DNA of 41,902 nt. It comes from Lachnospiraceae bacterium. GTDB lineage: Bacteria > Bacillota > Clostridia > Lachnospirales > Lachnospiraceae. This document shows, piece after piece, positions 18,161 through 38,586 of the stretch (its first letter is position 1; each line of letters starts with the position of its first letter). The stretch is taken from positions 1 to 41,902 of the forward strand of contig JAETRI010000028.1 in the NCBI GenBank assembly GCA_021770245.1, read 5' to 3'. The position numbers and the translations under genes are program-made. Below the pieces are notes generated by a model. The model was given only the letters and a program-made list of their open reading frames with translations. It was not told where the DNA came from and searched no databases.

Positions 18161-19342
18161 TCAGGCGGCCTGCTTTTCTTTCTTTTGAGCGGAAAAATGG
18201 GCATGCAGCCCCACTGCGCATCCTCCTGTCACCAGCATGAGAACCAGTCCATAGAGGAAATAGGTCTCGAGCAGTCCGATCCGGTCCCCCAGCCAGCCTC
18301 CCACGATGTTGCTGAACGTACATGCGATCCCGGTCTGAACCATGTAGAACAGGGACTGCCCCGTTCCGTGGAGCTCCTTTGGAAGGTTCTGGTTCATGAA
18401 CATGACGCAGCTGTAATACATGATCATGTAGCTCATCCCCTGAAGGGACTGTCCCAGGAAGATGCCCGCTATGCTCCCGGTAAGAGGCAGCCAGATCCGC
18501 ACCGACATGACCCCGCCCGCAATGAGGAGCAGATACTCGATCCGCACCTTTCTCGAAAGATATCGGATCCCCAAAAGGACGGGCACCTCGCTCAGGGCGG
18601 AGACGCACATCAGCCTTCCGATGGTCCCGTTATCATACCCCATATCCGTGACTACCAGGCCCAGAAAGGAACCGTAGCAGCCCAGAACGATCTGGAAGAT
18701 GCAGGCATAGAACAGGATAAACACGATCTTCCTGGAACGGAAAATAGACCATACGTTTACTTTTTCTTTTTTCCCGCCTCCGCTCCTGCGCCCGCCGTTC
18801 AGAAGGAAAGTAATGCAGAACATGGCGCCCCAGGCCAGGGAGGTGATCTTGAAGGAAGCCGTGGGATCTTTCTTCAGATACATCCCGGCAAAGATGACCA
18901 CCACCGAATAGGCCAGCGTCCCTCCCAGCCGGATGCTGGAAAACTGCAGGCCGTGTTCCATGGCCATATCCACCACCAGCGAATCCCCGATGGGGCCGAT
19001 GGCACAGTTGAAAAGGCTGTAGAGGAACACGCAGGCGGCGAACATGGGAAAGGTATGGGCGCCATAATAGCACAGGACGGCGCCCATGGAGCCCAGGAGC
19101 GCAAAACGCAGCACACTCATGTGCCGCCCTGTCCTGTCGGAAAGGATTCCCCACAGCGGCTGCATCACCAGGGCGAGCATGGGGCCGATCGCGGACAGCA
19201 TCCCGATCTGGCTCACGCTCATTCCCTGGGATCTGTAGTAGACCCCGATATAGGCGCCGAAAGTGGCGCCCGGTATATAGTACAACGCGTTGAACGTAAA
19301 CAGGATCCAGAAGATACGGACTGCCTTTTTTTCGCTGTGCAT
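18161..19342 (-). CDS. MFS transporter, sugar-type
   Basis: The 393-residue protein has about 12 hydrophobic segments (for example IFWILFTFNALYYIPGATFGAYIGVYY and IVFILFYACIFQIVLGCYGSFLGL). The conserved MFS loop 2-3 motif is GILSDRTGRHMSVLRF. A central basic loop (GGRRSGGGKKEKVNVW) separates the two six-helix halves. It resembles the MFS_1-like/LacY-type group of proton-coupled oligosaccharide and nucleoside transporters. The ATG has GGGAGG five bases upstream. It follows the isomerase gene by 12 bp, making it the last gene of the sulfatase-aldolase-kinase-isomerase operon. It likely imports the substrate sugar or exports a by-product. Confidence 0.85.
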   Translation of the reverse strand: MHSEKKAVRIFWILFTFNALYYIPGATFGAYIGVYYRSQGMSVSQIGMLSAIGPMLALVMQPLWGILSDRTGRHMSVLRFALLGSMGAVLCYYGAHTFPMFAACVFLYSLFNCAIGPIGDSLVVDMAMEHGLQFSSIRLGGTLAYSVVVIFAGMYLKKDPTASFKITSLAWGAMFCITFLLNGGRRSGGGKKEKVNVWSIFRSRKIVFILFYACIFQIVLGCYGSFLGLVVTDMGYDNGTIGRLMCVSALSEVPVLLGIRYLSRKVRIEYLLLIAGGVMSVRIWLPLTGSIAGIFLGQSLQGMSYMIMYYSCVMFMNQNLPKELHGTGQSLFYMVQTGIACTFSNIVGGWLGDRIGLLETYFLYGLVLMLVTGGCAVGLHAHFSAQKKEKQAA

Positions 19343-19354
19343 GGGAACCTCCCT

Positions 19355-20752
19355 TTAATAGGTATTCGGCATATCGGGAAGGTCGATCTGGATATCCAGA
19401 TAACGGCAGGCCTCCTGCATGATTTCCGTATAGCTTCCATGGATTCCCACCACATGATGGATATAGGGGCCGAAGATAAACTTCTTCTCCCACTTCACCC
19501 AATCTTCCGTCTCGATCCAGAGATAGTTTCCATTGGTGACGGGGCCTTCCACTCCCTTTGCCTCTCCGGCGAACATATAGTACTTTCCGTTGATGCCGTC
19601 AAAGCGCAGTACCGTGACCCTGCCTCCCTCCAGCTCATAAAATCCCTTTCCCTGTTCGATGATATACCCTTCGGCCCCTTTTTTCTTCAGCCGCTTTGCA
19701 AAGGAACCGCAGTGCCAGAGCAGCTCCGCATTGTCGTTCTCCGGATGGCGGATGGTAAGATCCGCCACAAAGGAAGGGGTGGTATACCTGGAAGCGGCAA
19801 CAGCCATGACGGAAGTGATCGCTGCATGCACATCATTCTCACAGGCTGCAGGGATCCCCCTGTCATTCAGATCGCCCAGGATAAAGCAGGGCGATACCCC
19901 GTATTTCGTGCGGAACAGATTCCAGCATTCACAGGAAATGGCATTACAGCAGTTGTCCTCGGCGAAGTCCATCAACGCCAGTTCGATGGCTGCCAACGGA
20001 TAGCGCTTCTCCCCCAGCCGGCTGATGTCCAGTCCCGCATCCACCAGATCCTGGAGCAATGCCTCCATCCGGTCTTTTTTCCCTGCAAGGATCCGGTCCA
20101 CCATATTCAGGATGACGGTGGGCTCTCCGGGTACGATCTCGATATCGTACTTTTCCAGCAGTTCCGATTCATTGACCATTACGCTCAAAAACTCTTTCGG
20201 CCGGCTGCTGATCTTCGCAATCCGAAGCGCCCGGAATGCCTTGACCACGTTTGCCACGGCCAGGAAATCCCGAAGCCCGCGCACCAGGATCTCGCTGTCT
20301 GGCTCGCAGTTCTCAATATAGGAAAACTTCACACCGTAATGCATCAGCAGCTTGGTGGTGGCGAACATGCCGCACTGGCTGTCCGTGGGCCTCCATTCCA
20401 GCCCGTTGGGATAGCCGTCCCTGGGTCCCCAGATCAGCACCGGAAGCCCCATATCCTTGGCAAGCCTCCCCACCGCCTCCTCCTGCCCGAAATTACAGTG
20501 GGGCACGATCAGGGCATCCACGCCTGCTGCCGTCAGCTTCTCATAAGCAGGCTTCACGTCGCGGTAATGCATGAGCATACCCTCTTCGTTAATATCTTCG
20601 ATTCCCACGATATCGAAGTCCAGCTGCTCGGCCAGCTCATAAAATCTCTTCACCACCGCTTCCTTCTGCCTGGTGGTGGTTTCGTTACGAAATGCTTCCC
20701 TCCTGGTCGGTACCAGCCCGATTTTCAATCGCTTTTCCCGGTTTTTCATCAT
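19355..20752 (-). CDS. L-fucose/L-arabinose isomerase family protein
   Basis: The 465-residue protein has the layout of the L-fucose isomerase-like family. The N-terminal Rossmann-like domain (KIGLVPTRREAF, VDALIVPHCNFGQEEAVGRLAKDMGLPVLIWGPRD) is typical. The C-terminal part has NCCNAISCECWNLFRTKYG and MFAGEAKGVEGP, where the E and D/H ligands for Mn2+ are expected (candidate E in CECW and H in IRHPEND). The reaction is aldose to ketose. It is followed in the pathway by the kinase and aldolase encoded upstream in the same operon. Whether the sugar is fucose, arabinose or another aldose cannot be decided. Its ATG is preceded by GGGAG, part of the hairpin repeat at 20760. Confidence 0.8.
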   Translation of the reverse strand: MMKNREKRLKIGLVPTRREAFRNETTTRQKEAVVKRFYELAEQLDFDIVGIEDINEEGMLMHYRDVKPAYEKLTAAGVDALIVPHCNFGQEEAVGRLAKDMGLPVLIWGPRDGYPNGLEWRPTDSQCGMFATTKLLMHYGVKFSYIENCEPDSEILVRGLRDFLAVANVVKAFRALRIAKISSRPKEFLSVMVNESELLEKYDIEIVPGEPTVILNMVDRILAGKKDRMEALLQDLVDAGLDISRLGEKRYPLAAIELALMDFAEDNCCNAISCECWNLFRTKYGVSPCFILGDLNDRGIPAACENDVHAAITSVMAVAASRYTTPSFVADLTIRHPENDNAELLWHCGSFAKRLKKKGAEGYIIEQGKGFYELEGGRVTVLRFDGINGKYYMFAGEAKGVEGPVTNGNYLWIETEDWVKWEKKFIFGPYIHHVVGIHGSYTEIMQEACRYLDIQIDLPDMPNTY

Positions 20753-20759
20753 CTTTTTT

Positions 20760-20860
20760 TACTCCCTTCTGCCTGCCGAAGGCAGGCCTTCTCATCAGGA
20801 CAGCCGAAGGCGCCCTTCCTTCGGCTTACTCCCTTCTGCCTGCCGAAGGCAGGCTTTCTC
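20760..20860 (-). repeat. tandem double-hairpin leader, GCCTGCC type
   Basis: Two 34-nt copies (20760-20793, 20827-20860) each contain GCCTGCC/GGCAGGC with loop GAA. A different hairpin lies between them: AGCCGAAGG/CCTTCGGCT (20802-20810/20818-20826) with a 7-nt loop. On the minus strand each copy ends in AGAAGGGAG; the copy nearest the isomerase supplies its Shine-Dalgarno. The layout (SD, hairpin 1, CAGGA spacer, 9-bp hairpin with 7-nt loop) equals that of the 66-nt units at 24495 and 33328. Confidence 0.75.
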
Positions 20861-20862
20861 GT

Positions 20863-21813
20863 CTACAGATTGTTCCGGTAATATGCCAGGCGCTCCATGG
20901 CCTGCCGGTCGTCGATCCTCCCGGTTTCCATAAAGATACGCACCGTCTCCCGGTCCGGAATACCGGTCCGTCCTCCGATGCAGGTACATTTGACCGCAGA
21001 AACCGCACTGGCGAACCTGGCGCATTCCGGCGCGCTCATCCCCTCCAGCAGGCCCACGATATAGGCTCCGTGAAATACGTCCCCTGCTCCCGTGGTATCC
21101 CTCACCTGCACCGGATAACACGCCGTTGTGAAGAAGCCGTCCTCTGCGGTCATCCCCACGCTGCCTTTGCTGCCCAGCGTGACGATCGCGGTGGAAGGGC
21201 CGGCTTCCAGCAGTCTTCTGCAGCCCTCCTCATAGTCCAGCTCCCCGAACATGTCCCGATAGAAAAATTCCGAGGCGATGAACACATCCAAAAGAGGCAG
21301 GAGCTTCACAATCCCCTCCTGATAATGATCCGCGTCCATCACGGTAACGATCCCGTTCTCCCTGGCAAAGGCGGCTGCCGCCGCGCTGGCCGCATTTCCG
21401 TTCTCCAGATGCAAATAACGCGCCTTCTTCAGATAGGCATAGTCGATCTCTTCCGGCAGAAGTTCTCCGGCCGTCCCCGGCCTGCCGATGAAGATCCTCG
21501 TCTTGTGTTCCTCTTCCGACAGGGAAAGGCAGAAAGGGCTGGAGGTTCCCTTTTCTCCCACCACCAGAGCAGAAATATCCACCCCGTTGTACGCAAGATC
21601 CTCTGTCACGAACCTTCCCCTGTGATTCTCTCCCACCTTGGCTATCATACCGGCGCTCCGGCCCAGCCTCGCTGCCGCCACCATAGCGGTAGCCACTTTG
21701 CCGCCTCCTTGATAGAAAGCTTCATTCGCCGTGGCCGCCCCGTCCAGCTCCGGCATGCGGCTCACGTTCATCACCATATCATATATGGGAACCCCAATCC
21801 CCACCACATCCAT
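20863..21813 (-). CDS. PfkB/ribokinase-family carbohydrate kinase
   Basis: The 316-residue protein begins at the ATG at 21813 (MDVVGIGVPIYDM). The frame is open further upstream but that stretch is low-complexity and crosses a hairpin. Family marks are QGGGKVATAMVAAARLG near residue 40 (substrate-side glycine motif) and VRDTTGAGDVFHGAYIVGLL near residue 235, whose TGAGD contains the catalytic Asp and anion hole. Ribosome-binding sequence before this ATG is weak (AAGAGAG). It should phosphorylate the ketose made by the isomerase, giving the substrate of the class II aldolase encoded just upstream. Position in the operon supports this: aldolase stop to kinase start is 169 bp, kinase stop to isomerase start 110 bp. 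Confidence 0.82.
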   Translation of the reverse strand: MDVVGIGVPIYDMVMNVSRMPELDGAATANEAFYQGGGKVATAMVAAARLGRSAGMIAKVGENHRGRFVTEDLAYNGVDISALVVGEKGTSSPFCLSLSEEEHKTRIFIGRPGTAGELLPEEIDYAYLKKARYLHLENGNAASAAAAAFARENGIVTVMDADHYQEGIVKLLPLLDVFIASEFFYRDMFGELDYEEGCRRLLEAGPSTAIVTLGSKGSVGMTAEDGFFTTACYPVQVRDTTGAGDVFHGAYIVGLLEGMSAPECARFASAVSAVKCTCIGGRTGIPDRETVRIFMETGRIDDRQAMERLAYYRNNL

Positions 21814-21922
21814 CTCTCTTACCCATGCCTTTCTTGTTCCGGACGCTCTTCCCGAAACGGGAACAGGCCCGGAACCATATGTCCGAAAGAACTTTCCTTT
21901 CCCTTCCATCCCTTCCCGGCAT

Positions 21923-21939
21923 GCCGCATTCCCTGCGGC
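21923..21939 (-). repeat. GCCGCA hairpin before the kinase gene
   Basis: Perfect arms GCCGCA (21923-21928) and TGCGGC (21934-21939) with loop GGGAA on the minus strand, followed by GGGAAGGG. It lies 110 nt upstream of the kinase ATG and belongs to the GCCGC hairpin group. Confidence 0.5.
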
Positions 21940-21982
21940 CCGGACTATGCACGCTCCCAACGACAGGAATCCGAAACAGCCC

Positions 21983-22828
21983 TTACAGGCTGAAATGCCC
22001 GGGATTGATCCGCGCAATCCTGCCGCGGACGAAATCAATGACTTCTTCCCCTGCTTCTTTATAATGATCCAGTACGAAGCCGTCCCTGCCCATGTGTGCC
22101 GCAACGCTCTTCTTGCATTGTTCGAAGAACTCCGTGCCGATGTTCACCTTGTTGATGCCGTATTTCACGGATTCGATCATCTGTTCCGCAGGGATCCCGG
22201 AGCCGCCGTGCAGCACCAAAGGCGTGGAGATCGTCCGGTTGATCTCATCCAGCCTCTTTATATCCAAATGGGGTTCGCACACATAATGCCCATGGCTGTT
22301 TCCGATGGCCACGGCCAGCGCGTCCACGCCCGTCTTTTCCGCGAAATCCTTCGCCTGCTCCGGCCTGGTATACAGCTCTGCATTGCAGAAGTCTTCCTTC
22401 CTGCTTCCCTGTCCCACGGTCCCCAGTTCGGCTTCCACGTCCACGCCCAGCACATGGGCGCATTTCGCCACAGCGGCTGTCACAGCCAGATTCTCTTCAT
22501 AGGGTTTGGCAGATCCGTCATACATAACGGAGGGAAAACCGGCGGCTATCCCGCCCACCGCCACCTCATAGGCCTTGCCATGGTCCAGATGCACGCCCAC
22601 CGGTACGGATGCCCTCTTTGCCAGATCCGTGGCGACGGCCGCCATGGTGGTAAAAGGAATGAAATGGCTCATATCCGGATAAAACATCAGCAGTACCGGC
22701 ATCTTTTCCCGTTCTGCCGCCTCTACCACCCACGCCGCCGACTGATAATCGAAAACATCAATCGCAGCCACTGCAAAGCGGTTCTCATCCGCCATCCTGA
22801 GGATCTCCCTCACTTTCATGGATCCCAT
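21983..22828 (-). CDS. class II ketose-bisphosphate aldolase (FBA/Gat family)
   Basis: The 281-residue protein has the zinc-site sequences of class II fructose/tagatose-bisphosphate aldolases: VGVHLDHGKAYEVA (the first zinc His and catalytic Asp), DVEAELGTVGQ, AIGNSHGHY (zinc His) and LVLHGGSGIPAEQM (zinc His and phosphate loop). INKVNIGTEFF is the second phosphate-binding segment. The ATG at 22828 has AGGAAGG six bases upstream; a second ATG lies three codons in. It cleaves a phosphorylated ketose to dihydroxyacetone phosphate plus an aldehyde. With the isomerase and kinase it forms an aldose catabolic route, using FBA-type rather than the FucA/AraD-type aldolase of the classical L-fucose pathway. 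Confidence 0.85.
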   Translation of the reverse strand: MGSMKVREILRMADENRFAVAAIDVFDYQSAAWVVEAAEREKMPVLLMFYPDMSHFIPFTTMAAVATDLAKRASVPVGVHLDHGKAYEVAVGGIAAGFPSVMYDGSAKPYEENLAVTAAVAKCAHVLGVDVEAELGTVGQGSRKEDFCNAELYTRPEQAKDFAEKTGVDALAVAIGNSHGHYVCEPHLDIKRLDEINRTISTPLVLHGGSGIPAEQMIESVKYGINKVNIGTEFFEQCKKSVAAHMGRDGFVLDHYKEAGEEVIDFVRGRIARINPGHFSL

Positions 22829-22953
22829 ATTGTACCTTCCTTTCTGCCGTTTTCGGCACTTCTGAATCCTGGCTCACACAGGCACGGGCCCTTTTAATCC
22901 GATCCGTCCCTGTGGAAGCACTCTCTGTCTTGCCTCCGGCGCCGAAGCCTTTG

Positions 22954-23028
22954 GCCGTATCCGGCTCTGTGCAAAAGCGCCTTTGGCCGCGTCCGGCCCT
23001 CCGCCGGATCCCTCGGCCGCATCCGGCC
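22954..23028 (-). repeat. three tandem GGCCG hairpins between sulfatase and aldolase
   Basis: Self-complementary units (G)GCCG-N4-CGGC(C) lie at 22954-22965, 22985-22998 and 23015-23028, with periods of 31 and 30 bp. On the minus strand each is followed by CGAGGG or CAAAGG. The array begins one base beyond the sulfatase stop codon. The rest of 22829-23029 shows nothing else. Confidence 0.65.
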
Positions 23029-23029
23029 C

Positions 23030-24490
23030 TTACCAGCAGGCCCTTCGCACCGGAAGCGGATCACAGGTCTGGGCCATACGGTCACACATGACCTCCAGGA
23101 GACGCAGCTTCACATCCTTCCAGCCCTCTTCCCCGTAATGGTTCACCCGTTCCGTAGGTTCTTCTGTCAGATCATACAACTCTCCTCCGCAGCCTTCTTC
23201 TCCCGGCTGCTGATGCACCTTCACCAGCTTGTATCTTCCGTCGCTCACCATGGTAGCAAAGGCCAAAGGATTCCGATGGTTGATGTTACTGTTGTAATAT
23301 TCGCAATAGACGCTGTCCCGGTGAACGTCAAGCTGTGCCTCCCCTGTCAGCAGCCTCCAGAAGGATCTGCCCTGGATCCCTTCCTCATGCCCGATTCCCG
23401 CCGCGTCGCACAGCGTCGGCACCAGATCCGTAAGCTCCACCAATGCCTTGCTGCGCCTTCCTGCCGGTATCACCCCGGGCCAGCTCATAATCAGCGGCAC
23501 ATGGACGTTATTTTCATAGAAATAGGGCCCTTTTAAATACATTCCATGATCTCCCAGGTTCTCCCCGTGGTCAGAATGGAACAGGATGAGCGTGTCCTTT
23601 CTCAGGCCCGTTTCCTCCAGATGATCCAGGAGCCTTCCCACCTGATGGTCGATCAGATCCACCATGGCCCAGTAGGCTGCCTTGATCATCCGCCTGTCAT
23701 GGTCATCCATCTCAGTATAGGCCAGATATCCCCTGGTATCATAAGCCCCTTCATGGTCCTTGCGCTGGAAAACGGGTTTATTGTCCAGCTCTCCTTCCTC
23801 ATACTCCGGAAGGGGGATCTCATCCAGCCGGTCCAGATAGGGCTGCAGATACTCCTTAGGGGGGTCGAAAGGATGATGGGGATCAAAACAGTTCAGAGAG
23901 AACATCCAATCCTTTCCGAAGGCCCTTGCCGTGTCGATGAAACGGATCGCCTCATCCACGCACCAGGTCGTCTGATGATAGGGTTCCTCCATCCCGGTCT
24001 GTACATAGCGGCAGTCCTCCCGGTCCGGGGTCACATAATCCATCCCCTTCCCGATCAAAAACTGCTGGTATTCGTTAGCCGGCCAGTTCGTCCCCCTGTG
24101 GGGCTGGGGATGATGGGACCAGCTGAAAAAATGATAGCCGTCGTCTATCCGCGGTTCGGCCAGCCTGCCCGTCCCGTCATGGCAGGCCGACAGGTGCAGT
24201 TTTCCGGAAAGCCCGCAGAAATATCCTTTGTCTGCCAGCATCCGGGGAAAAAGCCGTTCTTTCCCGTCGATGTCCTGCCCGTTCTGTCTGGGGCCGCAGG
24301 TCCTGGGATAGCGTCCCGTGAGGAAGCTTCCCCGGCTCGGTGCACACACGGGGCTCTGGCAATAGGCCCTTTCAAAAAGGATCCCCTCATTCGCCAGCCG
24401 GTCCAGGTTCGGAGTATGTACCCACCCGTTTCCATAGCATCCCAGCGTATCGTACCGCTGCTGATCCGTGCATATCCATAATATGTTCAT
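23030..24490 (-). CDS. type I (formylglycine) sulfatase, first gene of catabolic operon
   Basis: The 486-residue protein starts at the ATG at 24490, with AGGGGAG directly upstream; a longer frame would run through repeat sequence. The signature C-x-P-S-R (CAPSRGSFLTGRYP, C49) is present. ILWICTDQQRYDTLGCYG carries the metal Asp (D9), and FHSDHGENLGDHGMYLKGP the second metal site. LNCFDPHHPFDPPKEYL is also characteristic of sulfatases of this group. There is no signal peptide, so it is probably cytoplasmic and acts after uptake. The operon continues with aldolase, kinase, isomerase and MFS transporter. Its promoter region (24708-24735) carries the dyad pair shared with the SBP1 operon. Expression likely depends on the neighbouring ArsR-type regulator. 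It requires an anSME maturase encoded elsewhere. Confidence 0.9.
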   Translation of the reverse strand: MNILWICTDQQRYDTLGCYGNGWVHTPNLDRLANEGILFERAYCQSPVCAPSRGSFLTGRYPRTCGPRQNGQDIDGKERLFPRMLADKGYFCGLSGKLHLSACHDGTGRLAEPRIDDGYHFFSWSHHPQPHRGTNWPANEYQQFLIGKGMDYVTPDREDCRYVQTGMEEPYHQTTWCVDEAIRFIDTARAFGKDWMFSLNCFDPHHPFDPPKEYLQPYLDRLDEIPLPEYEEGELDNKPVFQRKDHEGAYDTRGYLAYTEMDDHDRRMIKAAYWAMVDLIDHQVGRLLDHLEETGLRKDTLILFHSDHGENLGDHGMYLKGPYFYENNVHVPLIMSWPGVIPAGRRSKALVELTDLVPTLCDAAGIGHEEGIQGRSFWRLLTGEAQLDVHRDSVYCEYYNSNINHRNPLAFATMVSDGRYKLVKVHQQPGEEGCGGELYDLTEEPTERVNHYGEEGWKDVKLRLLEVMCDRMAQTCDPLPVRRACW

Positions 24491-24494
24491 TTGT

Positions 24495-24662
24495 GCTCCC
24501 CTCTGCGTGCAAAGCACGCATTCAAATCAGGGAGGTTGAAAGCGTTTTTCTTTCAACCTTGCTCCCCTCTGCGTGCAAAGCACGCATTCAAATCAGGGAG
24601 GTTGAAAGCGCTCTTCTTTCAACCTTGCTCCCCTCTGCGTGCAAAGCACGCATTCAAATCAG
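24495..24662 (-). repeat. tandem 66-nt double-hairpin leader, 2.5 copies
   Basis: Two full 66-nt units (24495-24560, 24561-24626) and a partial third (24627-24662) precede the sulfatase ATG on the minus strand. Each has hairpin 1, TGCGTGC/GCACGCA with a 3-nt loop. Full units also have hairpin 2, GGTTGAAAG/CTTTCAACC with a 7-nt loop (AAAAACG or AAGAGCG on the minus strand). Each unit ends in AGAGGGGAGC; the last copy serves as Shine-Dalgarno for the sulfatase. Confidence 0.9.
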
Positions 24663-24707
24663 TGGGGCAGTTCCCCTTCCAGTTCTGCTGTACCTATCCT
24701 TAAGGTC

Positions 24708-24735
24708 ATTATATGTTCTACCTATTTTTTTTCAA
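24708..24735 (-). promoter_or_regulatory. sigma-A-type promoter of the sulfatase operon
   Basis: On the minus strand TTGAAA (24735-24730) and TATAAT (24713-24708) are separated by 16 bp. A 7-bp inverted repeat ATCATTT/AAATGAT (24735-24752) overlaps the -35 element. The predicted start is near 24701, giving a leader of about 210 nt that contains the tandem hairpins. Confidence 0.75.
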
Positions 24736-24754
24736 TCATTTCATTAAATGATAT

Positions 24755-24800
24755 GCATTTTGTATGCCATGCCCGTTCTTAATACATTTTTTATGTATTA
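24755..24800. promoter_or_regulatory. tandem dyad operators (sites A and B), sulfatase/arsR region
   Basis: Site A is GCAT-N5-ATGC (24755-24767). Site B is the perfect dyad TAATACAT-N5-ATGTATTA (24780-24800). Their centres are 29 bp apart, at about -60 and -89 relative to the predicted sulfatase start. The same pair occurs at 31339-31384. Confidence 0.75.
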
Positions 24801-24805
24801 CCAGC

Positions 24806-24834
24806 TTGCATTTTTTCGCGTTCCATCCTATAAT
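24806..24834 (+). promoter_or_regulatory. sigma-A-type promoter of the ArsR-type regulator gene
   Basis: TTGCAT (24806-24811) and TATAAT (24829-24834) are separated by 17 bp. Site B ends 5 bp upstream of the -35, so the regulator may control its own gene. The predicted leader is about 78 nt. Confidence 0.8.
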
Positions 24835-24918: not shown

Positions 24919-25875
24919 TTGGATATCGACGAAATCAAACAGCAGATCACCCTTGATCTGTCCGATATTGAGAACACGGCCCGCATCTGCAAGGCCCTGT
25001 CCTCCGAAACCAGACTGGAGATCCTGCGGTGTCTGGTCGCCAAAGCCATGACCATCAGCGAACTTGCGGCGCATTTCTATCTGCCCATGTCCTCCATGTG
25101 TCTGCACATCAAGACCCTCCGGGAGGCCGATTTGATCTCCGTAGTCCCAAAGTCCGGGATCCGGGGCTCCCAAAAGCTGTGCGGGATCAAAACCTCCCGG
25201 ATCAGCCTGGATCTTTTTTCCCATACAAGCAAAATCGTCCATAACCCTCCGGCTTTCGTCAATATGCCCATAGGCCATTACAGCAACTGCGAGGTACACC
25301 CGCCCTGCGGTATCGCTTCCGCCGATTCCTACCTGTATCAGGAGGATACGCCCTACGGCTTCTATTCCCAGGACAGGACGGACGCTTCCCTGTTGTGGTT
25401 TTCCAGCGGCTATCTGGAATATCAATTTTCCAACTATACCCTGCAGCAAGACCGTGTTTCCCAGATCGAGTTCTCCTTTGAGGTATGTTCCGAAGCCCCC
25501 GGGTATAACAACAACTGGCCCTCCGATATCACCCTTGAACTGAACCACAAACCTGTCACCACCTTCCGTACCAAGGGGGATTACGGCGGAAGGAAAGGGA
25601 TTTACAATCCTTCCTGGTGGAGCGATTCCCTTACCCAGTTCGGCGAATACAAGAAAATCCTCATTACCCGCGACGGCTGCTTCATGGACGACCGGCAGGT
25701 ATCCGAAGAGAACATCGACAGCCTGGGTCTTTTAAAGGATTATTTCTTTTCTTTCATCCTCCGGGTGGATCCGGACAGCCAGCACGTGGGCGGCATGAAT
25801 CTGTTCGGAAAGCATTTCGGCGATTTTGCCCAGGATATCGTCATGAAAGTGGAATATGAAAACAACGGCATTTAG
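24919..25875 (+). CDS. ArsR-type HTH regulator with large C-terminal domain
   Basis: The 318-residue protein uses a TTG start with AAAGGAGG eight bases upstream. Residues about 15-85 are an ArsR/SmtB winged helix (ICKALSSETRLEILRCLV, then the recognition region TISELAAHFYLPMSSMCLHIKTLREADLI). No metal-binding CxC or histidine sensor pattern is seen in the helices. The remaining about 220 residues form a beta-rich domain (for example YNNNWPSDITLELNHKPVTTF, SWWSDSLTQFGEYKKI) unlike ordinary ArsR proteins. I infer it senses a ligand such as a sugar. It is divergent from the sulfatase operon, and dyad sites lie between the promoters. It likely controls that operon and the SBP1 operon, but this is untested. 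Confidence 0.8.
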   Translation: MDIDEIKQQITLDLSDIENTARICKALSSETRLEILRCLVAKAMTISELAAHFYLPMSSMCLHIKTLREADLISVVPKSGIRGSQKLCGIKTSRISLDLFSHTSKIVHNPPAFVNMPIGHYSNCEVHPPCGIASADSYLYQEDTPYGFYSQDRTDASLLWFSSGYLEYQFSNYTLQQDRVSQIEFSFEVCSEAPGYNNNWPSDITLELNHKPVTTFRTKGDYGGRKGIYNPSWWSDSLTQFGEYKKILITRDGCFMDDRQVSEENIDSLGLLKDYFFSFILRVDPDSQHVGGMNLFGKHFGDFAQDIVMKVEYENNGI

Positions 25876-26738: not shown

Positions 26739-27674
26739 TTATCTCGTAATCTCTACCTTCAGCACGTCGCCGTCTATGATCATTTCGTCGATCCTGGCGG
26801 AGCGGGCATCCTCAGACAGGGCCGCATCCCCCATATCCCTTCCATGATAGACGATATAACATTTGCCGCCGTCAAAGATCACGCTGTTATGTCCCATTCC
26901 TTCGATCCAGTCCGTATTGCACAGCAGAGGCGCATAAGTATTCTCATCCGGATATTTCTTCCAGTCCAGCGTCCGCAGGTCTGCATCCTCCGGGCCGTGC
27001 GCAACACAATATCCGATGAAATAGGTAGGGTTCGTATGATTGGCGCCGGAGAACATCAGGAAGTGGGTCTGCCCCACATGGAAGTAGAATGCGCCTTCCA
27101 CCGTATGCCAGTCTTCCCCTTCCTTAAAGCGGTTCCTCATATAGATCTCTTCATCCAAAGTGGGACGCACCACACAAACCGGCCTTCCCTCCATGGTGAG
27201 AGGATCCGTCATCCTGTCGCAGTAGATATAAGTACCAACGCGCTCAGCTTCATAGATATTCTGACAATAGAAATGATAGATCCCGGAGCCGTTCACCACC
27301 ACATGAGGATCAATAGAGAAAGGCGGCATCAGCTTCTTGACCATCCGGAAAGGGCCATGGGGAGAATCCGCCACGGCGACACGCATGGTATGCCCATGTT
27401 CGTCCTCCGAATCCAGATCCCTGCTGGAATAATACATATAATATCTTCCGTCCATCCGGATCACGCAGGGCGCCCAGCAGTTCTTCTGTCCGGTCATATC
27501 GAGACAGATCCCTTCATATTCCCAGCCGTCTAACAAATTGTCGCTGGAAAAGAGCGAAGGCCCGTTGGGTCCGGTGGCATAGAGATAATATCTTCCGTCG
27601 TCCGCCTTGATCATATACGGATCCGCCTGACCGAGCGGAGCCGTATCATTCGGTTTTCGCTTATATAGTTTCAT
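26739..27674 (-). CDS. glycoside hydrolase family 43-like enzyme, second
   Basis: The 311-residue protein is a GH43-type beta-propeller. Candidate catalytic residues are D18 in QADPYMIKADDGRYYLYAT, D122 in FSIDPHVVV and E193 in HTVEGAFYFHV. WAPCVIRMDGRYYMYYSS and MGHNSVIFDGGKCYIVYHGRD are further family features. It has no signal peptide. It differs clearly from the GH43 at 17156. The ATG has AGGGG ten bases upstream. It lies 126 bp after the second permease of the SBP1 importer, so it is probably the last gene of that operon and hydrolyses the imported oligosaccharide. The 126-bp gap holds only an AT-rich tract. Confidence 0.82.
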   Translation of the reverse strand: MKLYKRKPNDTAPLGQADPYMIKADDGRYYLYATGPNGPSLFSSDNLLDGWEYEGICLDMTGQKNCWAPCVIRMDGRYYMYYSSRDLDSEDEHGHTMRVAVADSPHGPFRMVKKLMPPFSIDPHVVVNGSGIYHFYCQNIYEAERVGTYIYCDRMTDPLTMEGRPVCVVRPTLDEEIYMRNRFKEGEDWHTVEGAFYFHVGQTHFLMFSGANHTNPTYFIGYCVAHGPEDADLRTLDWKKYPDENTYAPLLCNTDWIEGMGHNSVIFDGGKCYIVYHGRDMGDAALSEDARSARIDEMIIDGDVLKVEITR

Positions 27675-27800
27675 GTGTCTTGATCCCCTTTAAAAATAAA
27701 ATATAATATTCCACCGCGGGCATTTTGTCCCAAACGGCTTTTTCCTGCCTGCGGTTCAAATCCGTGTATGAAAGATAAAACATCGGCCTTATTTTCCGGT

Positions 27801-28649
27801 CTATTTTACGGAACTGTCAATCTGTCCCTCGATAATGTACCTCTGCAGGAACAGATACATCACGATAACCGGAAGCAGGCCCAGGGCACAGGTGGCGCAG
27901 GCTCTCGGCATGTCTCCCGCACTGTTTCCGCGGCTGAACGCCGCCTTGATCACCAGGATAATAGTAAATTTGGATTTATCCTGCAGCAGGAACATGGGCA
28001 TCAGGTAGTTATTCCAGGAGCCCGTTGCCGCCATAATAATACGCGTAACCGTTACGGCCTTCAGCTGCGGCATGATGATCGTTAAGAAGGTGCGTATCAC
28101 GCCGGCGCCGTCGATGGCAGCTGCCTCGTCCAGAGCCACCGGGATGGAGATGATAAAGTTCACATACATGAACATGGTGGCCGGAATACCACCCGCCGCG
28201 GACAGCAGGGCCAGACCGACCAGGGTATTGCTCAGCCCCATCTTGACCATCAGGGAATAAGTACCTACCAGCAGGGCGATACCGGGAATCATCATAACCA
28301 GCATGTTGATCTTGCGGATCGCATTGTTCACCGCACCGCTGCTCCTGGCGACGCCGTATGCAGCCATCGCCGCCACGATAATCTCCAAAACCACGGTTTC
28401 CACGCACAAAATCAGGGAATTCTTGAAGCCGATCCATATATCCCCGGCTGCGAATACGTTCTTGTAGTTATCAAAGTACCATACCTCAGGCAGTGCGAGG
28501 TTGTGTGCAAAATCCTGCAGCGTCTTAAAGGAACGGATCAGCATGATGTAGATGGGCAGCATATAGATCAATACCAGCACTGCTGCCACGATATAGCACC
28601 ACCAGGTGGAATGGGTGTTGGGGCCTTTACCCGTCTTGACCTTTGCCAT
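27801..28649 (-). CDS. carbohydrate ABC transporter permease (MalG type), importer 1
   Basis: The 282-residue protein starts at the ATG at 28649, overlapping the previous stop (TAATG), with GGAGG upstream; an extension to 28679 is not needed. It has six membrane helices (for example WWCYIVAAVLVLIYMLPIYIMLI). The cytoplasmic EAA loop EAAAIDGAGVIRTFLTIIMP contacts the ATPase. The C-terminal end QRYIIEGQIDSSVK is typical for the MalG/CUT1 group. It pairs with the permease encoded immediately upstream. No ATPase gene is present, as usual for CUT1 importers in Firmicutes that share an MsmX-like ATPase. Confidence 0.92.
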   Translation of the reverse strand: MAKVKTGKGPNTHSTWWCYIVAAVLVLIYMLPIYIMLIRSFKTLQDFAHNLALPEVWYFDNYKNVFAAGDIWIGFKNSLILCVETVVLEIIVAAMAAYGVARSSGAVNNAIRKINMLVMMIPGIALLVGTYSLMVKMGLSNTLVGLALLSAAGGIPATMFMYVNFIISIPVALDEAAAIDGAGVIRTFLTIIMPQLKAVTVTRIIMAATGSWNNYLMPMFLLQDKSKFTIILVIKAAFSRGNSAGDMPRACATCALGLLPVIVMYLFLQRYIIEGQIDSSVK

Positions 28650-29518
28650 TAATACTCCACCTCCCTCTTTCTGAGCCACGCATTGATCGGCAGCGTGATG
28701 ATCATGATCATAAAGAACATGATGACGCCCACTGCGGATGCATATCCGGCCTTCTCGTCGTTGAAATACAGCATCTGGATATAATAGGACAGGGACATGG
28801 ACCTCCTGTTGGGTCCGCCGCCGGACATGGCCACGATCACCTCGTACATCTTAAAGCCGCCGATCAGGTTGGTCACAACGGCAGTGGTAATGGAAGGGAT
28901 CAGCAGCGGAATCGTGACACGGGTAAATTCCTGCCAGCGGTTGGCGCCGTCCAGCCTGGCCGCTTCCTTATACATCGTCGGGATATTCTGCAGGCCGGCC
29001 AGGTAGATCAGCATACATAATCCCATGTACTGCCAGGAATTGGCAAGGGTAATAATAATCGTTGCAGAAAGTCCGGTCTCCATCCAGTAGATCGGAGAGA
29101 CCCCGAACCAGCCCAGGATCTCGTTGAATACGCCGTTGTCCAGATCCACGAAGAAACGCAGGATCTGGCCCATGATAAATCCCGATATCATAATGGGCAT
29201 GTAAAGGATTACCCGTACACCGTTCCGGCCTTTGAAAGTCTTATTGAGGAACAGTGCCGTGGAAAGGCCCAGAATGTTCTGCAGCAGGGTGGAACCAAAG
29301 CCGTAAATCATCGTATTTCTGGTAGAACTCCAGAATACATCATCGGAAAACATTTTGATGAAATTCTCTATCCCGATAAACTTCATCTTCTGTGAATAGC
29401 CGTTCCATTTAAAGAACGATAATCTCAGACCGTTCACCAGCGGAGCACCGATGAACCAGAGCATCAGGATGATCGCAGGAATAGTCAGAGCAAGATATAT
29501 CCTCTTTCTTTTCTTCAA
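28649..29518 (-). CDS. carbohydrate ABC transporter permease (MalF/UgpA type), importer 1
   Basis: The 289-residue protein uses a TTG start at 29518 with GGGGGT about seven bases upstream; no closer ATG fits. It has six membrane helices, the first being LALTIPAIILMLWFIGAPLVNGL. The EAA loop is KEAARLDGANRWQEFTRVTI. The late segment MSGGGPNRRSMSLSYYIQMLYF is the usual G-G-P-x-x-x-T/S region of MalF-type permeases. It overlaps the next permease by one base and lies 148 bp after the SBP1 gene. Together they form the membrane channel of importer 1. Confidence 0.92.
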   Translation of the reverse strand: MKKRKRIYLALTIPAIILMLWFIGAPLVNGLRLSFFKWNGYSQKMKFIGIENFIKMFSDDVFWSSTRNTMIYGFGSTLLQNILGLSTALFLNKTFKGRNGVRVILYMPIMISGFIMGQILRFFVDLDNGVFNEILGWFGVSPIYWMETGLSATIIITLANSWQYMGLCMLIYLAGLQNIPTMYKEAARLDGANRWQEFTRVTIPLLIPSITTAVVTNLIGGFKMYEVIVAMSGGGPNRRSMSLSYYIQMLYFNDEKAGYASAVGVIMFFMIMIITLPINAWLRKREVEY

Positions 29519-29614
29519 ATCAGTACCCCCTTATCTCAAATACATTTGATAAGCCCCATAAACTATCCTTCGCAGCAGCCCGCCCGGGCCGTTCTACCCT
29601 CCCATGATAGAAAA

Positions 29615-29643
29615 CAGGTGAGGCGGCGAAGCCACCCCACCTC
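29615..29643 (-). terminator. hairpin between SBP1 and permease genes (possible attenuator)
   Basis: A stem of about 12 bp with one mismatch and a UUCG-type tetraloop (GGC-TTCG-CCG on the minus strand) is followed by GTTTTC. Partial termination here would make more binding protein than permease, a common arrangement in such operons. Confidence 0.6.
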
Positions 29644-29666
29644 TTTTTTCTTCCGAAAGAATATAC

Positions 29667-31052
29667 TCAGCCTTCCTGTGCCGCTTCGTAGAGATCCACA
29701 TAGTTCTCTTTCATATATTCCACACAGGCTTCCTGTCCCGCTTCGCTGGCATCTTCGAACAGCATATTGGATGCGTTGCCGGCGATCGGCCACATTCCGG
29801 AAGGCATATACTTCCTATCCCAGAAGTTATCATAGAAGATATTACGATCCCCACATTTGTCCTTCATTTCCTGGAAGGTCTTCTGGCCCATGCCGTCGTC
29901 GATCTCCATGCAGGACTTCAGAGCGGCGACCTTACCGGTAGCCTGGTTCATCTCATTGGCGATCTCGGCTTTTGCAAAGAATGTAAGGAATGCCTTTGCA
30001 GCGGCTTCATTGGAAGTGTCTTTCCAAATTCCGAAGGTATCGCCTTCACCCACTGCCACGTGCTGCACGCCGTCTTTGGTGGAAGAGAAGGAAGGCAGGA
30101 ACGCCATCTTCGCATCGGGTTTCAGCGTCTGTGCGGTAACGATGATGCCAGGGTCATTGCCCAGGATGAAAGCACACTTGCCGTCCGCAAATCTCTCGGC
30201 CAGTGAATTTGCATCCATGGTGAGGATATCTTCATAGAAATAGCCTTTGTTGATCCAGTCGGCCATGGTCTTAACCAGAGAGTTCTTATAGGACTCCCAA
30301 TCCCAGGTGCCGTCCAGCTGAGCTGCGCCGTCTTCTGCCATCTCGCCTTCATAGGTCACGAAGGTTCCCGCATAGTTGGTCATCAGGCCGGGGTTGGAAT
30401 TCATGCCGAAGGGGGTATATCCGGCAGCTTTGATCTTCTCGCAGGCAGCGGTCAGATCTTCATAAGTATTGATCGTATAAGGATCCACTCCTGCCGCTTC
30501 GCAGACATCCAGATTCACCAGAGTCGCGTTGATCAGCTCGGAAATCATCATAACATAGATCGAACCGTCGGAATCCTGGATAACGCCCAGTGCGGATTCG
30601 TCCAGGTCGGACACCCAGGGCTCGTTCCTCAGATCCATCAGATATTCTTTGTAACGAAGGATGGACCAGCCATGGGTCTGCCAGATATCGGGCATCTCAT
30701 TGGCTGCCATACGGGTCTTCAGGGTAGCTTCGTAGTCGTCGCCGTACTCCGCTACGTTCACGGTTACACCGCTTTCTGCTTCGAACTGATCCACAAGTTT
30801 GTTGAAGGTCGCAAGCTGGTCGCCGGTATAGGTAACGGCGATCTCCAGCGTAGCTCCGGATACATCACCGGCCGCTTCCGCATTATCTCCCCCCGCTTCG
30901 CTTTCGGCGGGTGCCTCTTCTTCACTGGCCGCAGGCGCTGCCGCCGACTCTGCGGGCTCCTGCGATCCGGTAGAGCCGGAATTTCCTCCGCAAGCCGCAA
31001 GAGACGATGCGAGCACTGCTGCCATGACAAGAGCAACGATCTTCCTCTTCAT
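29667..31052 (-). CDS. extracellular solute-binding lipoprotein, importer 1
   Basis: The 461-residue protein starts at an ATG with GGAGGAG upstream. A lipoprotein signal (MKRKIVALVMAAVLASSLAAC) has the lipobox LAAC with the lipidated Cys at 21. An Ala/Glu-rich linker runs to about residue 65. The mature part is a family 1 sugar-binding protein: LEIAVTYTGDQLATFNKLVDQFEAESG is the usual start, ADWINKGYFYEDILTMD and FADGKCAFILGNDP are typical middle segments. It should bind an oligosaccharide outside the membrane and pass it to the two permeases. It is the first gene of an operon whose promoter shares the dyad pair with the sulfatase operon. Confidence 0.92.
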   Translation of the reverse strand: MKRKIVALVMAAVLASSLAACGGNSGSTGSQEPAESAAAPAASEEEAPAESEAGGDNAEAAGDVSGATLEIAVTYTGDQLATFNKLVDQFEAESGVTVNVAEYGDDYEATLKTRMAANEMPDIWQTHGWSILRYKEYLMDLRNEPWVSDLDESALGVIQDSDGSIYVMMISELINATLVNLDVCEAAGVDPYTINTYEDLTAACEKIKAAGYTPFGMNSNPGLMTNYAGTFVTYEGEMAEDGAAQLDGTWDWESYKNSLVKTMADWINKGYFYEDILTMDANSLAERFADGKCAFILGNDPGIIVTAQTLKPDAKMAFLPSFSSTKDGVQHVAVGEGDTFGIWKDTSNEAAAKAFLTFFAKAEIANEMNQATGKVAALKSCMEIDDGMGQKTFQEMKDKCGDRNIFYDNFWDRKYMPSGMWPIAGNASNMLFEDASEAGQEACVEYMKENYVDLYEAAQEG

Positions 31053-31290
31053 ACAAATCTCCTCCTTTTTGATATTTGATGCAGAACCCTTTCTAAGGAC
31101 TCTCCATCCTGATTTTGATCAATACAATTTAATTGTATTAATACCGTTTTTATTTGACACCTTTTGTCCCTAAATACTCTTTTCCGTCTTTCCATTTTGC
31201 CCATAGTTCCAAACATTGTGTCAACGCAAATAAACATTACGACTAATACACAGCGCTGTGATGTTCGTCATATTTGTTATTTATGGCTTT

Positions 31291-31319
31291 ATTATATAGA
31301 CGCTTTTCACATTTTTCAA
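31291..31319 (-). promoter_or_regulatory. sigma-A-type promoter of the SBP1 operon
   Basis: On the minus strand TTGAAA (31319-31314) and TATAAT (31296-31291) are separated by 17 bp. The predicted start is near 31284, giving a leader of about 230 nt that is AT-rich and contains the further inverted repeat TACAATTTAATTGTA (around 31121-31137). Confidence 0.75.
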
Positions 31320-31338
31320 TATAATTCAAGAAATTTAT

Positions 31339-31384
31339 ACATTTAGTATGCTTTTCTCGATTTTAGTACATTATTTATGTACTA
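31339..31384. promoter_or_regulatory. tandem dyad operators (sites A and B), SBP1 promoter
   Basis: Site A is ACAT-N5-ATGC (31339-31351). Site B is the perfect dyad TAGTACAT-N5-ATGTACTA (31364-31384). Centres are 29 bp apart, and site A lies 16 bp upstream of the -35, exactly as in the sulfatase promoter. Confidence 0.75.
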
Positions 31385-31615: not shown

Positions 31616-33322
31616 TTATGCCAAATATTCGTGAGCCATCACCAGCATCACGCTGGCCGTCCAGGTATAGGCCCTGTCCCGAAGCCCGTCGCCCGTGAGG
31701 GCGTCAAAATTCTCGGCGCAGCCGCTCTTTCCAACCATCTCGCAGAATCTGCGGGTGACCTGCTGCACATATTCCTTCTCTCCGCATTCCATCAGCCCAT
31801 CCAGGATCAGCATGGTACTGGGCGCCCAGATCGGGCCTCGCCAGTATCCGTCCGACTCATAGAGGCCGCTCTTGGGGCTTTCTGTGGCAAGGCCCCATGC
31901 AGTGAGGAATTTGTCTCCCTTCAACACCTCGATCATCTTCTTTTGGATCTGTCCGGGGAGCAGTTTCCCCAACACGATGGGAAGGTAAAGGATCAGGCTG
32001 TCCGTCTCCACCCGTTCCTTTTCCAGGCCCGCATAAGCCACCGGCAGATCATCCACGAAGAGTTCTTCCAGCATACGCTCCCTCATCTCGTCCCTGCGCC
32101 GTTCCCACATGCGCCTGGCGGCCTGGCGGCCCAGCTTTCCGGCCACCTCTGCCAGCACATCCATCTGCAGCACCAGGAAAGCGGCCAGATCGGGAAGGGT
32201 TGCAGGCGGCAGCTTCAGAAATGCGGTGGAATTATCCCAGCCCGAATCGTTCCCATGGGTATACTCACACAGTCCGTCCCCGTTCTCGTCCCGGCAGTCC
32301 AGCCACCAGTTCGTCCATCCGGAAAGCTTGTCATAAGCCTCCGCGAGCTGTTCCATGGACAACTCCATCACTCCCATCAGCTTGCGCAGAGCCCATCCAT
32401 GGATCGGCGGTTTGCAATAATTGTGGATCGGTTTGCTGTCGTTCACGCTGTCAGGGATATTTCCGGACGGCTTTTGATGGTCAAAGAGCACCAGGAATTG
32501 ATCCCAAGCTTCCTTCGGGTTTCCGTAGGAGAGCGCCATGGCATTGAAGCAATGATCCCAGCTCCACACATTGCACATCCAGTTTTTGGACATCAGCATG
32601 GCTTCTCTGGTAAGAAGGCCGCAGGGCTTCACAATGCTCGACCAGTCCACATAGGCTGCGATCCTGGCCGTCTCCTCATACTGCGCTTCGACCGAGGGCA
32701 TGGAAGCATGGAAGGCCTCGAAGGCTTCCCTGCTGCAGACTGCGGCTTCCTCAAAATCAAAATCCCTTCCCCGGTCCTGCCAGTCTTCAAAAGCCTCCTC
32801 CACGCTGACAAGATACTCTCCCGACTCGTCCGGAATGAGGTGCAGCCTGCAATAAGCGGCGGTACTGCCGTCCCATTCCTGCTCTGCCTCTATCCTGCCC
32901 TGCTGAGCACGCAGCACATACCGGCAGTTGTTCCTGAAGCAGTTCATCAGCAGGAACCGCCTCTCCCCTGCCTGCATGGGCTGGCTGAAGGTAAAGGGCA
33001 GGCCCTCGCTCATAAAATCAAGCGTCATGGGCAGATCCCCCTTCAGCAGAAGCGTATCCGCGTCATGGAATGCCATACGGCACTTCTTCCCTTCTTTTTC
33101 GATCCGCAGCTCGTCCGCATCCGCCGCGTATCCGTTTTCTTCCACCGCATCCCCGTTCCCGGTCTCAACCCTCGCCACAAAGGAGGAAGAGGCCGAGCCA
33201 TGGACAGTCCTTAAGTACATCCCCCGCTCTATCTTCTGATGGTTAAAGCAGCCCTCCAAATAAGATACGGCCAAATAGGATCCTCGATAACTAAACGGTA
33301 CTTCTCTCAAATTCAACTTCAT
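31616..33322 (-). CDS. GH63/MGH1-like glycoside hydrolase
   Basis: The 568-residue protein starts at the ATG at 33322 with AGGGGAG six bases upstream; the longer frame would run into hairpin repeat sequence. The N-terminal 200 residues are a beta-rich domain. The rest is an (alpha/alpha)6 barrel of the trehalase/glucosidase group: NVWSWDHCFNAMAL, HGNDSGWDNSTAFL, GYWRGPIWAPSTML and NFDALTGDGLRDRAYTWTASV. These match the MGH1-like/GH63 family, whose members act on mannosylglycerate, glucosylglycerate or alpha-glucosides. Candidate catalytic acids are the Asp in WSWDH and the Asp/Glu near GWDNS. No signal peptide is present. It is the last gene of the importer 2 operon and likely hydrolyses its ligand in the cytoplasm. 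Confidence 0.82.
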   Translation of the reverse strand: MKLNLREVPFSYRGSYLAVSYLEGCFNHQKIERGMYLRTVHGSASSSFVARVETGNGDAVEENGYAADADELRIEKEGKKCRMAFHDADTLLLKGDLPMTLDFMSEGLPFTFSQPMQAGERRFLLMNCFRNNCRYVLRAQQGRIEAEQEWDGSTAAYCRLHLIPDESGEYLVSVEEAFEDWQDRGRDFDFEEAAVCSREAFEAFHASMPSVEAQYEETARIAAYVDWSSIVKPCGLLTREAMLMSKNWMCNVWSWDHCFNAMALSYGNPKEAWDQFLVLFDHQKPSGNIPDSVNDSKPIHNYCKPPIHGWALRKLMGVMELSMEQLAEAYDKLSGWTNWWLDCRDENGDGLCEYTHGNDSGWDNSTAFLKLPPATLPDLAAFLVLQMDVLAEVAGKLGRQAARRMWERRRDEMRERMLEELFVDDLPVAYAGLEKERVETDSLILYLPIVLGKLLPGQIQKKMIEVLKGDKFLTAWGLATESPKSGLYESDGYWRGPIWAPSTMLILDGLMECGEKEYVQQVTRRFCEMVGKSGCAENFDALTGDGLRDRAYTWTASVMLVMAHEYLA

Positions 33323-33327
33323 TTTTT

Positions 33328-33428
33328 GCTCCCCTCCGCCCGCTTTAGCGGGCACTCCATTCAGGGAGGTTGAAAGCGTCCTTCTTTCAACCTTGCTCCC
33401 CTCTGCGTGCTTTAGCACGCACTCCATT
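33328..33428 (-). repeat. 66/67-nt double-hairpin leader, 1.5 copies
   Basis: A full unit (33328-33394) and a partial one (33395-33428) precede the GH63-like ATG. Hairpin 1 is GCCCGC/GCGGGC in the first copy and GCGTGC/GCACGC in the second, both with loop TAAA on the minus strand. Hairpin 2 is GGTTGAAAG/CTTTCAACC with loop AAGGACG. The closest copy ends in GGAGGGGAGC and serves as Shine-Dalgarno. Confidence 0.9.
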
Positions 33429-36999: not shown

Positions 37000-38442
37000 C
37001 TATCGCTTTGTCCCATTCCGAAACTCCCTGGGCGAAAGCCGGCAGACTTTTCGAAAGGATCTGGCAAAATAATTGGCGTCGCTGTAGCCCACGATCCGAG
37101 CAATCTCGCTGATGGACCAATCTGTCATACTCAGGTATTCCTTCGCTTTCTCCATCCGATAGTTCTCCAGATACTGGGGGATCGTCATACCCAGCTTTTC
37201 TTTAAAACGCTTCGTCATGTACCCCGGCGCCAGAAAGAATTCCCCGCTCAGCTCTGCCAGGCCGATTTCTTCCTGATAATGTTGTTCCAGATAGAGGCGG
37301 ATCCGTTCCACCACATCGTCCCTGTTCAATTGGCCTCTCATCTTCTCGCGCAGTATCCGGCCATATTGCTTCCATTTTTCCAGAATATCCTGTTGGAGGC
37401 GGCAGTTCGTCAGAGCCATCATGCCGAACTCTTCTTTCAGGTTTCCCGGAATTGCCATTTCATATTTCATGTAAACGCCCGCATATATCGTCATCACGGA
37501 ATGATGGACCTCCAGCAGGGACGGAACATACTCTCTCTTGGAAAATATCTCTGCAAACAGATCCTCCAGAATCTCTTCATATCGCTTTTCCTTCAGATTA
37601 TCCAAAGCGATCTCCAACTGTTCCAGATTCCGTTTCGGCCAGCATAGCGTATCCAGATCCGCAGGAAATACCTGCCTGGCTCCATACCAGAACCGCAGGT
37701 TCAAAGCGCCCTCCAGATGCCGGAGTAGCTCTGTCATATCCTGTCCGTCAGCCCTGATCCAGGAGGCGCACGCCGACATCCAAGGGGAAAGCGCTTCCAG
37801 GACAGTCCTTATCCTATCTTCCTCCATCTCCATACCCCCCATTAAGAGAAGCACATTCCTGCTTCCCTGAAAATGGAGCATCCTCCACTGGTCCCGGGGA
37901 AAATCCTGCCTCCAGATCCTTTTACACTCCCCGGGAGACTCTGTCAGCAAGTCCGTCAGCCTTTCCTGATACAGAAGGACCGCCGTTCCGCGGAACGCCC
38001 CCCGTTCCGTCGGACAGTCTTCCCAATATTCCTTTCTGCTGTCCATCAGCCGCTCCTGCTCCTCCCGAATGGCACGGCATACCTTTTCCATCGTTTCCTG
38101 AAATTCCTGCTGTATGATGGGCTTCATAATATAATCCATCACACCGGCCTGGATTGCCTTTTTCACATAGGCAAAATCATCATAACCGCTGATGATGATA
38201 AACCTCGTCTTGCTGTTCTCATCGATCCTGCGTACTCTTTCCACAAACTCCAACCCGTCGCACTGGGGCATGTTCACATCTACGAGAAAAATATCCGGCC
38301 CTGTTTTCTCATATAACTCAAAAGCCTCATTTCCGTTCCCTGCAACGCCCACCACCCGGACAGGCAGGCCTGTGAGCGCGAGCCGCCTTTCGATGCTTTT
38401 CACCACAAATGCCTCATCGTCCGCAATACATATCTTATACAT
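37000..38442 (-). CDS. AraC-type response regulator (YesN-like)
   Basis: The 480-residue protein starts at the ATG at 38442 with GGAGG six bases upstream; a longer frame to 38577 lies in non-coding leader. Residues 1-120 are a receiver domain with acidic pair in IADDE, phospho-acceptor D55 in IFLVDVNMPQ and K107 in YIMKPI. The middle 260 residues are an uncharacterised linker domain. The last 100 residues are an AraC HTH: IGLAELSGEFFLAPGYMTKRFKEKLGMTIPQYLE and WSISEIARIVGYSDANYFARSFRK. With the upstream kinase it should activate the downstream SBP2 operon when the extracellular ligand is sensed. Confidence 0.92.
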   Translation of the reverse strand: MYKICIADDEAFVVKSIERRLALTGLPVRVVGVAGNGNEAFELYEKTGPDIFLVDVNMPQCDGLEFVERVRRIDENSKTRFIIISGYDDFAYVKKAIQAGVMDYIMKPIIQQEFQETMEKVCRAIREEQERLMDSRKEYWEDCPTERGAFRGTAVLLYQERLTDLLTESPGECKRIWRQDFPRDQWRMLHFQGSRNVLLLMGGMEMEEDRIRTVLEALSPWMSACASWIRADGQDMTELLRHLEGALNLRFWYGARQVFPADLDTLCWPKRNLEQLEIALDNLKEKRYEEILEDLFAEIFSKREYVPSLLEVHHSVMTIYAGVYMKYEMAIPGNLKEEFGMMALTNCRLQQDILEKWKQYGRILREKMRGQLNRDDVVERIRLYLEQHYQEEIGLAELSGEFFLAPGYMTKRFKEKLGMTIPQYLENYRMEKAKEYLSMTDWSISEIARIVGYSDANYFARSFRKVCRLSPREFRNGTKR

Positions 38443-38455
38443 TCCGTTCCTCCAC

Positions 38456-38472
38456 ACCGCATCCTCTGCGGC
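38456..38472 (-). repeat. GCCGCA hairpin with GAGGA loop before the response regulator
   Basis: Arms CCGCA/TGCGG (38457-38461/38467-38471), extended by a G-U pair in RNA, carry loop GAGGA on the minus strand. The sequence GGAGGAACGG and the ATG at 38442 follow at once. Confidence 0.6.
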
Positions 38473-38586
38473 TTTGTGATGTGACAGCAACCGACATGCC
38501 GGCAATGTCACTGCTGCAGACGGCGCCGCACGCCTTTTCCACCCGTGATCCGGACCCGGCCGCACGCATATGCACACTCCGCAAGA

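Follow-up and report, generated by a model that had tools for sequence, protein, structure and literature searches.

A paired-dyad operator shared by two carbohydrate operons in a Lachnospiraceae bacterium, and its candidate ArsR-type regulator

Two operons with one promoter layout

The window analysed here, a 41,902-nucleotide stretch of contig JAETRI010000028.1 (assembly GCA_021770245.1, Lachnospiraceae bacterium), carries two operons of interest on its minus strand. The first, at 18161-24517, comprises genes for a sulfatase with the CAPSR motif, a class II aldolase, a PfkB kinase, an isomerase-like protein and an MFS transporter. The second, at 26739-31052, encodes a solute-binding protein (SBP1), two permeases and a GH43 protein. 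Divergent to the sulfatase operon, on the plus strand at 24919-25875, lies the gene for a candidate regulator, here called REG, which Pfam and structure prediction describe as an ArsR-type winged helix with a C-terminal beta-sandwich. The isomerase-like gene (19355-20752) has a weak match to the sulfoquinovose isomerase SftI (83 bits, cut-off 700) and adjoins the PfkB kinase and class II aldolase genes, perhaps marking an unassigned sugar pathway.

Both operons are preceded, on the minus strand, by the same elements in the same order: site B (TARTACAT-N5-ATGTAYTA), 12 bp, site A (GCATACWAAATGYATA), 16 bp, TTGAAA, 16 or 17 bp, and TATAAT. A preliminary description of the window had proposed this common layout, and its sequences and coordinates proved correct. 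At the sulfatase promoter, site B (TAATACAT-AAAAA-ATGTATTA, 24780-24800) has no mismatches to the consensus dyad, and in site A (GCATACAAAATGCATA, 24752-24767) only the downstream half matches the extended half-site. A promoter scan returned TTGAAA-16-TATAAT at 24735-24708 (-35 at 24730-24735, -10 at 24708-24713), with 11 of 12 consensus matches. At the SBP1 promoter, site B (TAGTACAT-AAATA-ATGTACTA, 31364-31384) and site A (GCATACTAAATGTATA, 31336-31351) precede TTGAAA-17-TATAAT at 31319-31291 (-35 at 31314-31319, -10 at 31291-31296), again with 11 of 12 matches; the chance yield of the two scans is 0.6 and 1.7 sites per region. With +1 assumed to lie 7 nt past the -10 hexamer, the centres of A and B fall at -60 and -89 for the sulfatase promoter and at about -61 and -90 for the SBP1 promoter, in keeping with the earlier estimate of near -60 and -90. 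By eye, REG has a likely promoter of its own, TTGCAT-17-TATAAT at 24806-24834 on the plus strand, which the promoter scan did not list; site B would end 5 bp upstream of this putative -35.

The exact site pair is not scattered randomly through the genome. In 4,281,116 bp, two copies of RCAT-N5-ATGY (identical to RCA-N7-TGY) separated by 8-16 bp occur at 2 places, both in the window and both at the target promoters, and a reversed-pattern control gave 0. A weight matrix built from six pairs, including both window pairs, scored the two promoters at 54.8 and 49.1 against a maximum of 8.0 in 10 shuffled windows, and a 14-pair matrix reached at most 7.7 in 20 Markov shuffles. The bare pair pattern with up to two mismatches is noisy (11 places in the same genome, control 3), and the single RCAT-N5-ATGY is mildly enriched in the window, with 6 occurrences against 2.92 expected, a count reached in 3 of 100 shuffles.

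Two further structures lie in the leaders. Three tandem 66-bp units with a hairpin occupy 24494-24691 in the sulfatase leader; we regard them as a dispersed repeat because the genome holds 43 matches, some at contig ends. The SBP1 leader contains, at 31240-31270, a palindrome inside GAC...GTC that reads CACAGCGCTGTG here and GATAGCGCTATC or GATAGGCCTATC in relatives. Its symmetry is kept while its letters change. It perhaps acts as an RNA hairpin or as an operator, and its fold z-scores across five genomes range from -0.85 to -2.97.

Conservation of the pair among relatives

Sequence comparison indicates a shared architecture under selection at both promoters, and its conservation is well shown. 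When the REG-sulfatase intergenic region is aligned across five genomes, B, A, TTGAAA and TATAAT emerge as conserved islands, the -10 being invariant and the -35 changing only at its last base, in E. porci. Between the sites the 12 bp differ from genome to genome while the sites themselves are kept, which bears out the earlier suggestion of selection on the sites amid non-conserved DNA. The SBP1 promoter layout is also kept in E. porci, CE91-St56 and E. tayi. Since pairs persist separately at both promoters in these three genomes, recent duplication is unlikely, as had been proposed; the two promoters may nevertheless descend from one ancient ancestor. Elsewhere among the relatives, the layout precedes another sulfatase gene (G303, G299 and G307) or a GH43 gene (G300).

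On relatives' loci, the six-pair matrix scored nine places outside its training set at 20 or more. Of the 15 distinct places that the 14-pair matrix scored above 22, 14 belong to its training set. The promoter is not part of this matrix, yet at 13 of the 15 its TTGAAA follows site A after 15-16 bp and at least 11 of 12 promoter positions match the consensus (L056 and L058 have 8). A fixed distance between an upstream site and the -35 is a trait of class I activators. The B-to-A distance is apparently 28 rather than 29 in L103 and, weakly, in L057.

Orthologues of REG, taken as at least 70% identical, are present in 9 of 13 genomes of the window's genus, Eisenbergiella. Profile R1, built from the six pairs and searched on these 13 genomes (E<=0.1, at most 150 candidates scored per genome), gave 11 matches, 6 of which are training sites. 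Four of the 5 non-training matches lie on REG's contig within 12 kb of the REG orthologue (G303, the second pair of G302, G299 and G300; E 2.0e-4 to 0.02), and the fifth is partial (E 0.09) and away from REG. R1 had no match in the four genomes without a REG orthologue, which is weak evidence because these genomes are only 77-84% complete. At E<=0.1 it also failed to recover the second pair in each of G304 and G309, as well as the G307 pair, although G307 has REG; the matrix scan found all of them. We do not rely on the association between REG and the pair (p 0.007), in which training and incomplete genomes are counted. With 20 candidates scored per genome, a broader profile, R2, found no full-length match outside Eisenbergiella among 299 family genomes (best E 2.7e-4, partial). 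At E<=0.05 it had some match in 81 of the 299, mostly partial, which we take as background. Within Eisenbergiella its 13 strong matches are exactly its own training sites, so that this search is not independent evidence; three weak matches (E 0.04-0.07) lie elsewhere.

The SBP1 promoter of one relative, G107, is a natural promoter swap. Its leader is homologous from the -10 downstream, lacks both sites, and has in their place TTGACA-17-TATAAT, which matches the consensus at 12 of 12 positions (L104:12761-12789).

REG and a putative operator core of its homologues

The winged helix places REG among proteins with an ArsR/SmtB DNA-binding domain (HTH_20, 40.2 bits, cut-off 27; HTH_5, 25.7 bits, cut-off 22), and in fold comparison it matches ArsR homologues. 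REG falls below the cut-off of the curated metalloregulator profile NF033788 (44.2 bits against 55). CzrA-type metal-sensing ArsR/SmtB repressors share its winged-helix fold, whereas REG has about 220 further residues. In the predicted model (mean pLDDT 89.6, pTM 0.65), the winged helix is followed by a beta-rich domain. Foldseek retrieved ArsR proteins and also beta-sandwich proteins, including lectins and alginate lyases, with TM-scores of at most 0.30. This second group, listed without residue ranges, presumably corresponds to the C-terminal part of REG, a domain that would possibly sense a sugar.

Homologues of REG occur in 81 of 299 sampled family genomes at E<=1e-10. The recognition helix segment SSMCLH is common to the Eisenbergiella REGs, L057, L058 and G247, the last being a genome of another genus. 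In G247, REG is 62% identical, and by tblastn its 20-kb locus contains none of the other 19 window proteins compared. A palindrome with one mismatch, TAGTACATAATATATGTTATA, lies directly upstream of this REG, and none as good arose in 20 shuffles of the locus. By eye it fills the spacer of REG's own promoter (TTGCTT/TATAAA), which a stricter promoter rule did not call.

A core of the same spacing is enriched before more distant homologues. From 131 upstream regions, removal of 8 duplicates and of 12 at 60% identity or more left 111 homologues below 60% identity, and within about 350 bp upstream of these WACA-N7-TGTW was found in 19 against 3.9 expected (z 7.8). Among the other spacings of this core, N3 to N12, none exceeded z 1.7 in the same set. 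For the shorter ACA-Nn-TGT in the last 200 bp, N7 reached z 7.9 and N6 also z 3.7. Because WACA-N7-TGTW was chosen after viewing upstream sequences, a set of 53 homologues (54 less 1) served as a held-out test. There the core preceded 8 of 53 against 2.2 expected (z 4.3, with 8 also the best of 100 shuffles), and other spacings gave z of at most 1.2; two of the 8 sites are one sequence. The z values are generous because related genomes are not independent, and the spacing control is the better argument. No WACA-N7-TGTW was found before 92 of the 111 distant homologues or 45 of the 53 held out. Scans of the distant homologues for TACA-Nn-TGTA and for generic inverted repeats gave weak signals only, and CAT-Nn-ATG was not enriched upstream of them.

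Two other patterns were seen by eye. ATTAAT-type dyads, perhaps of the same geometry with other letters, lie upstream of the REG homologues at L185, L186, L191 and L197, and ACTTGTA..TACAAGT-like palindromes precede the homologue in most of seven genomes of one genus (L223-L229).

How the pair may act

In class I activation, as by CRP, one dyad is centred near -60 and another site lies farther from the promoter. Judging from the sequence, we consider it reasonably probable that both operons are activated by REG dimers bound at B, about -89, and at A, about -60. The two promoters would form a small local regulon of the divergently transcribed REG, whose dimers would recognise the dyad with its core RCA-N7-TGY. 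One dimer on the near-perfect palindrome B would help a second onto the lopsided A, whose position resembles that of a class I activator site and whose neighbouring -35, on the downstream side, departs from consensus by one base. With an inducer bound to its C-terminal domain, REG would stimulate both operons. The inducer would presumably be a sugar from the glycan on which the sulfatase, GH43 and ABC transporter act, be it sulfated or arabinose-containing. We infer activation from the position of the sites; cooperativity between dimers and an inducer are postulated alongside it. The likeness to CRP is one of site position, the protein families being different; class I activators also contact the RNA polymerase alpha subunit, which on this reading would be expected of REG too. 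Loss of the sites together with gain of a 12/12 consensus promoter in G107 is what one would expect had activation come from the sites.

It is rather unlikely, though deserving of attention, that REG binds but represses or is dual, acting from upstream or mainly on its own divergent promoter until a sugar releases it. Most ArsR proteins are repressors, and the family is best known for those that respond to metals. TTGAAA-TATAAT lies close to consensus, and the target promoters may work without an activator, a point against the activation reading. A promoter could be called for 17 of the 19 distant homologues with a site before their own gene. Eight of these sites centre at -60 to -132 and 9 at +3 to +39, a repressor position, which counts against the activation reading; the G247 site, by eye within the spacer of REG's own promoter, points the same way. 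Against repression, no part of either site reaches the -35 from its upstream side at the two targets, and the distance between A and the -35 is conserved. Moreover, no divergent gene adjoins the SBP1 pair (the MGH1 gene, 31616-33427, shares its strand), and G107 has a consensus promoter in place of the sites.

Described systems offer partial likenesses. ArbA/ArbR, probably the nearest relative described so far, is an ArsR-family regulator encoded beside abfA in Caldicellulosiruptor (ArbA of C. bescii) and, in the passage concerned, a predicted repressor (PMC8579813), which favours repression by REG. By that description it resembles REG in being ArsR-type, at a carbohydrate locus, divergent to its target and provided with several predicted intergenic sites. 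Its sites are in repressor position, whereas neither site of the pair is so placed at the REG target promoters, where the centres, about -60 and -89, fall upstream of the -35. The REG homologue at L225 (304 aa, about 31% identical over nearly the full length) is transcribed divergently from an ORF that weakly matches an arabinofuranosidase C-terminus, the same gene order as ArbA/abfA. In Geobacillus 56T3, an ArsR-annotated gene heads an arabinan cluster in the order ArsR, SBP family 1, two permeases and GH43; the likeness to the REG locus is one of gene order, the passage giving no operator or function (PMC4428132). In PMC3616900 and PMC11575207 the ArsR genes treated in the passages concerned are metal-related or lack an assignment. 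Searches of open-licence PMC papers showed no description of the paired operator.

That a regulator encoded elsewhere binds the pair, for example an AraC/YesN-type response regulator such as that at 37003-38577, seems improbable. A YesN is encoded in the window, and the co-location of sites and REG could merely mirror that of the operons. However, when 20 window proteins were compared by tblastn with 25 related loci, REG was present, in most Eisenbergiella loci together with DUF624, SBP1, two permeases, GH43 and the sulfatase operon, and YesN/YesM had no match at E<=1e-15 in any of the 25. YesN was set aside as binder on this result. Among 20 further proteins from four loci (ORFs of at least 180 aa), Pfam identified no other transcription factor. 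A palindrome follows REG into G247, and the N7 core is enriched before REG homologues. The divergent ArsR-type regulator, earlier named as the simplest binder, is on these grounds the best candidate, and the sequence comparisons strongly support REG as the putative binder of the paired sites. Chance likeness in AT-rich DNA, or a recent copy, is highly improbable and largely refuted: both regions are AT-rich and similar around the promoter, but shuffles stayed far below the observed scores, the 12-bp gap changes while the sites stay, and three other genomes have pairs at both promoters.

Returning to activation by REG, we suggest, tentatively and with more doubt than confidence, that REG represents a family of one-component sugar regulators that is widespread but for the most part undescribed, combining an ArsR winged helix with a jelly-roll-like sensor and recognising a core ACA-N7-TGT. 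One Eisenbergiella branch of it would have evolved into a true class I activator that acts on a fixed tandem B-29-A operator. With a defined operator core and a predicted sensor domain, regulons could be predicted for many sugar-uptake loci of Firmicutes that are so far unassigned, and the REG system would permit asking how the ArsR fold shifts from repression to activation.
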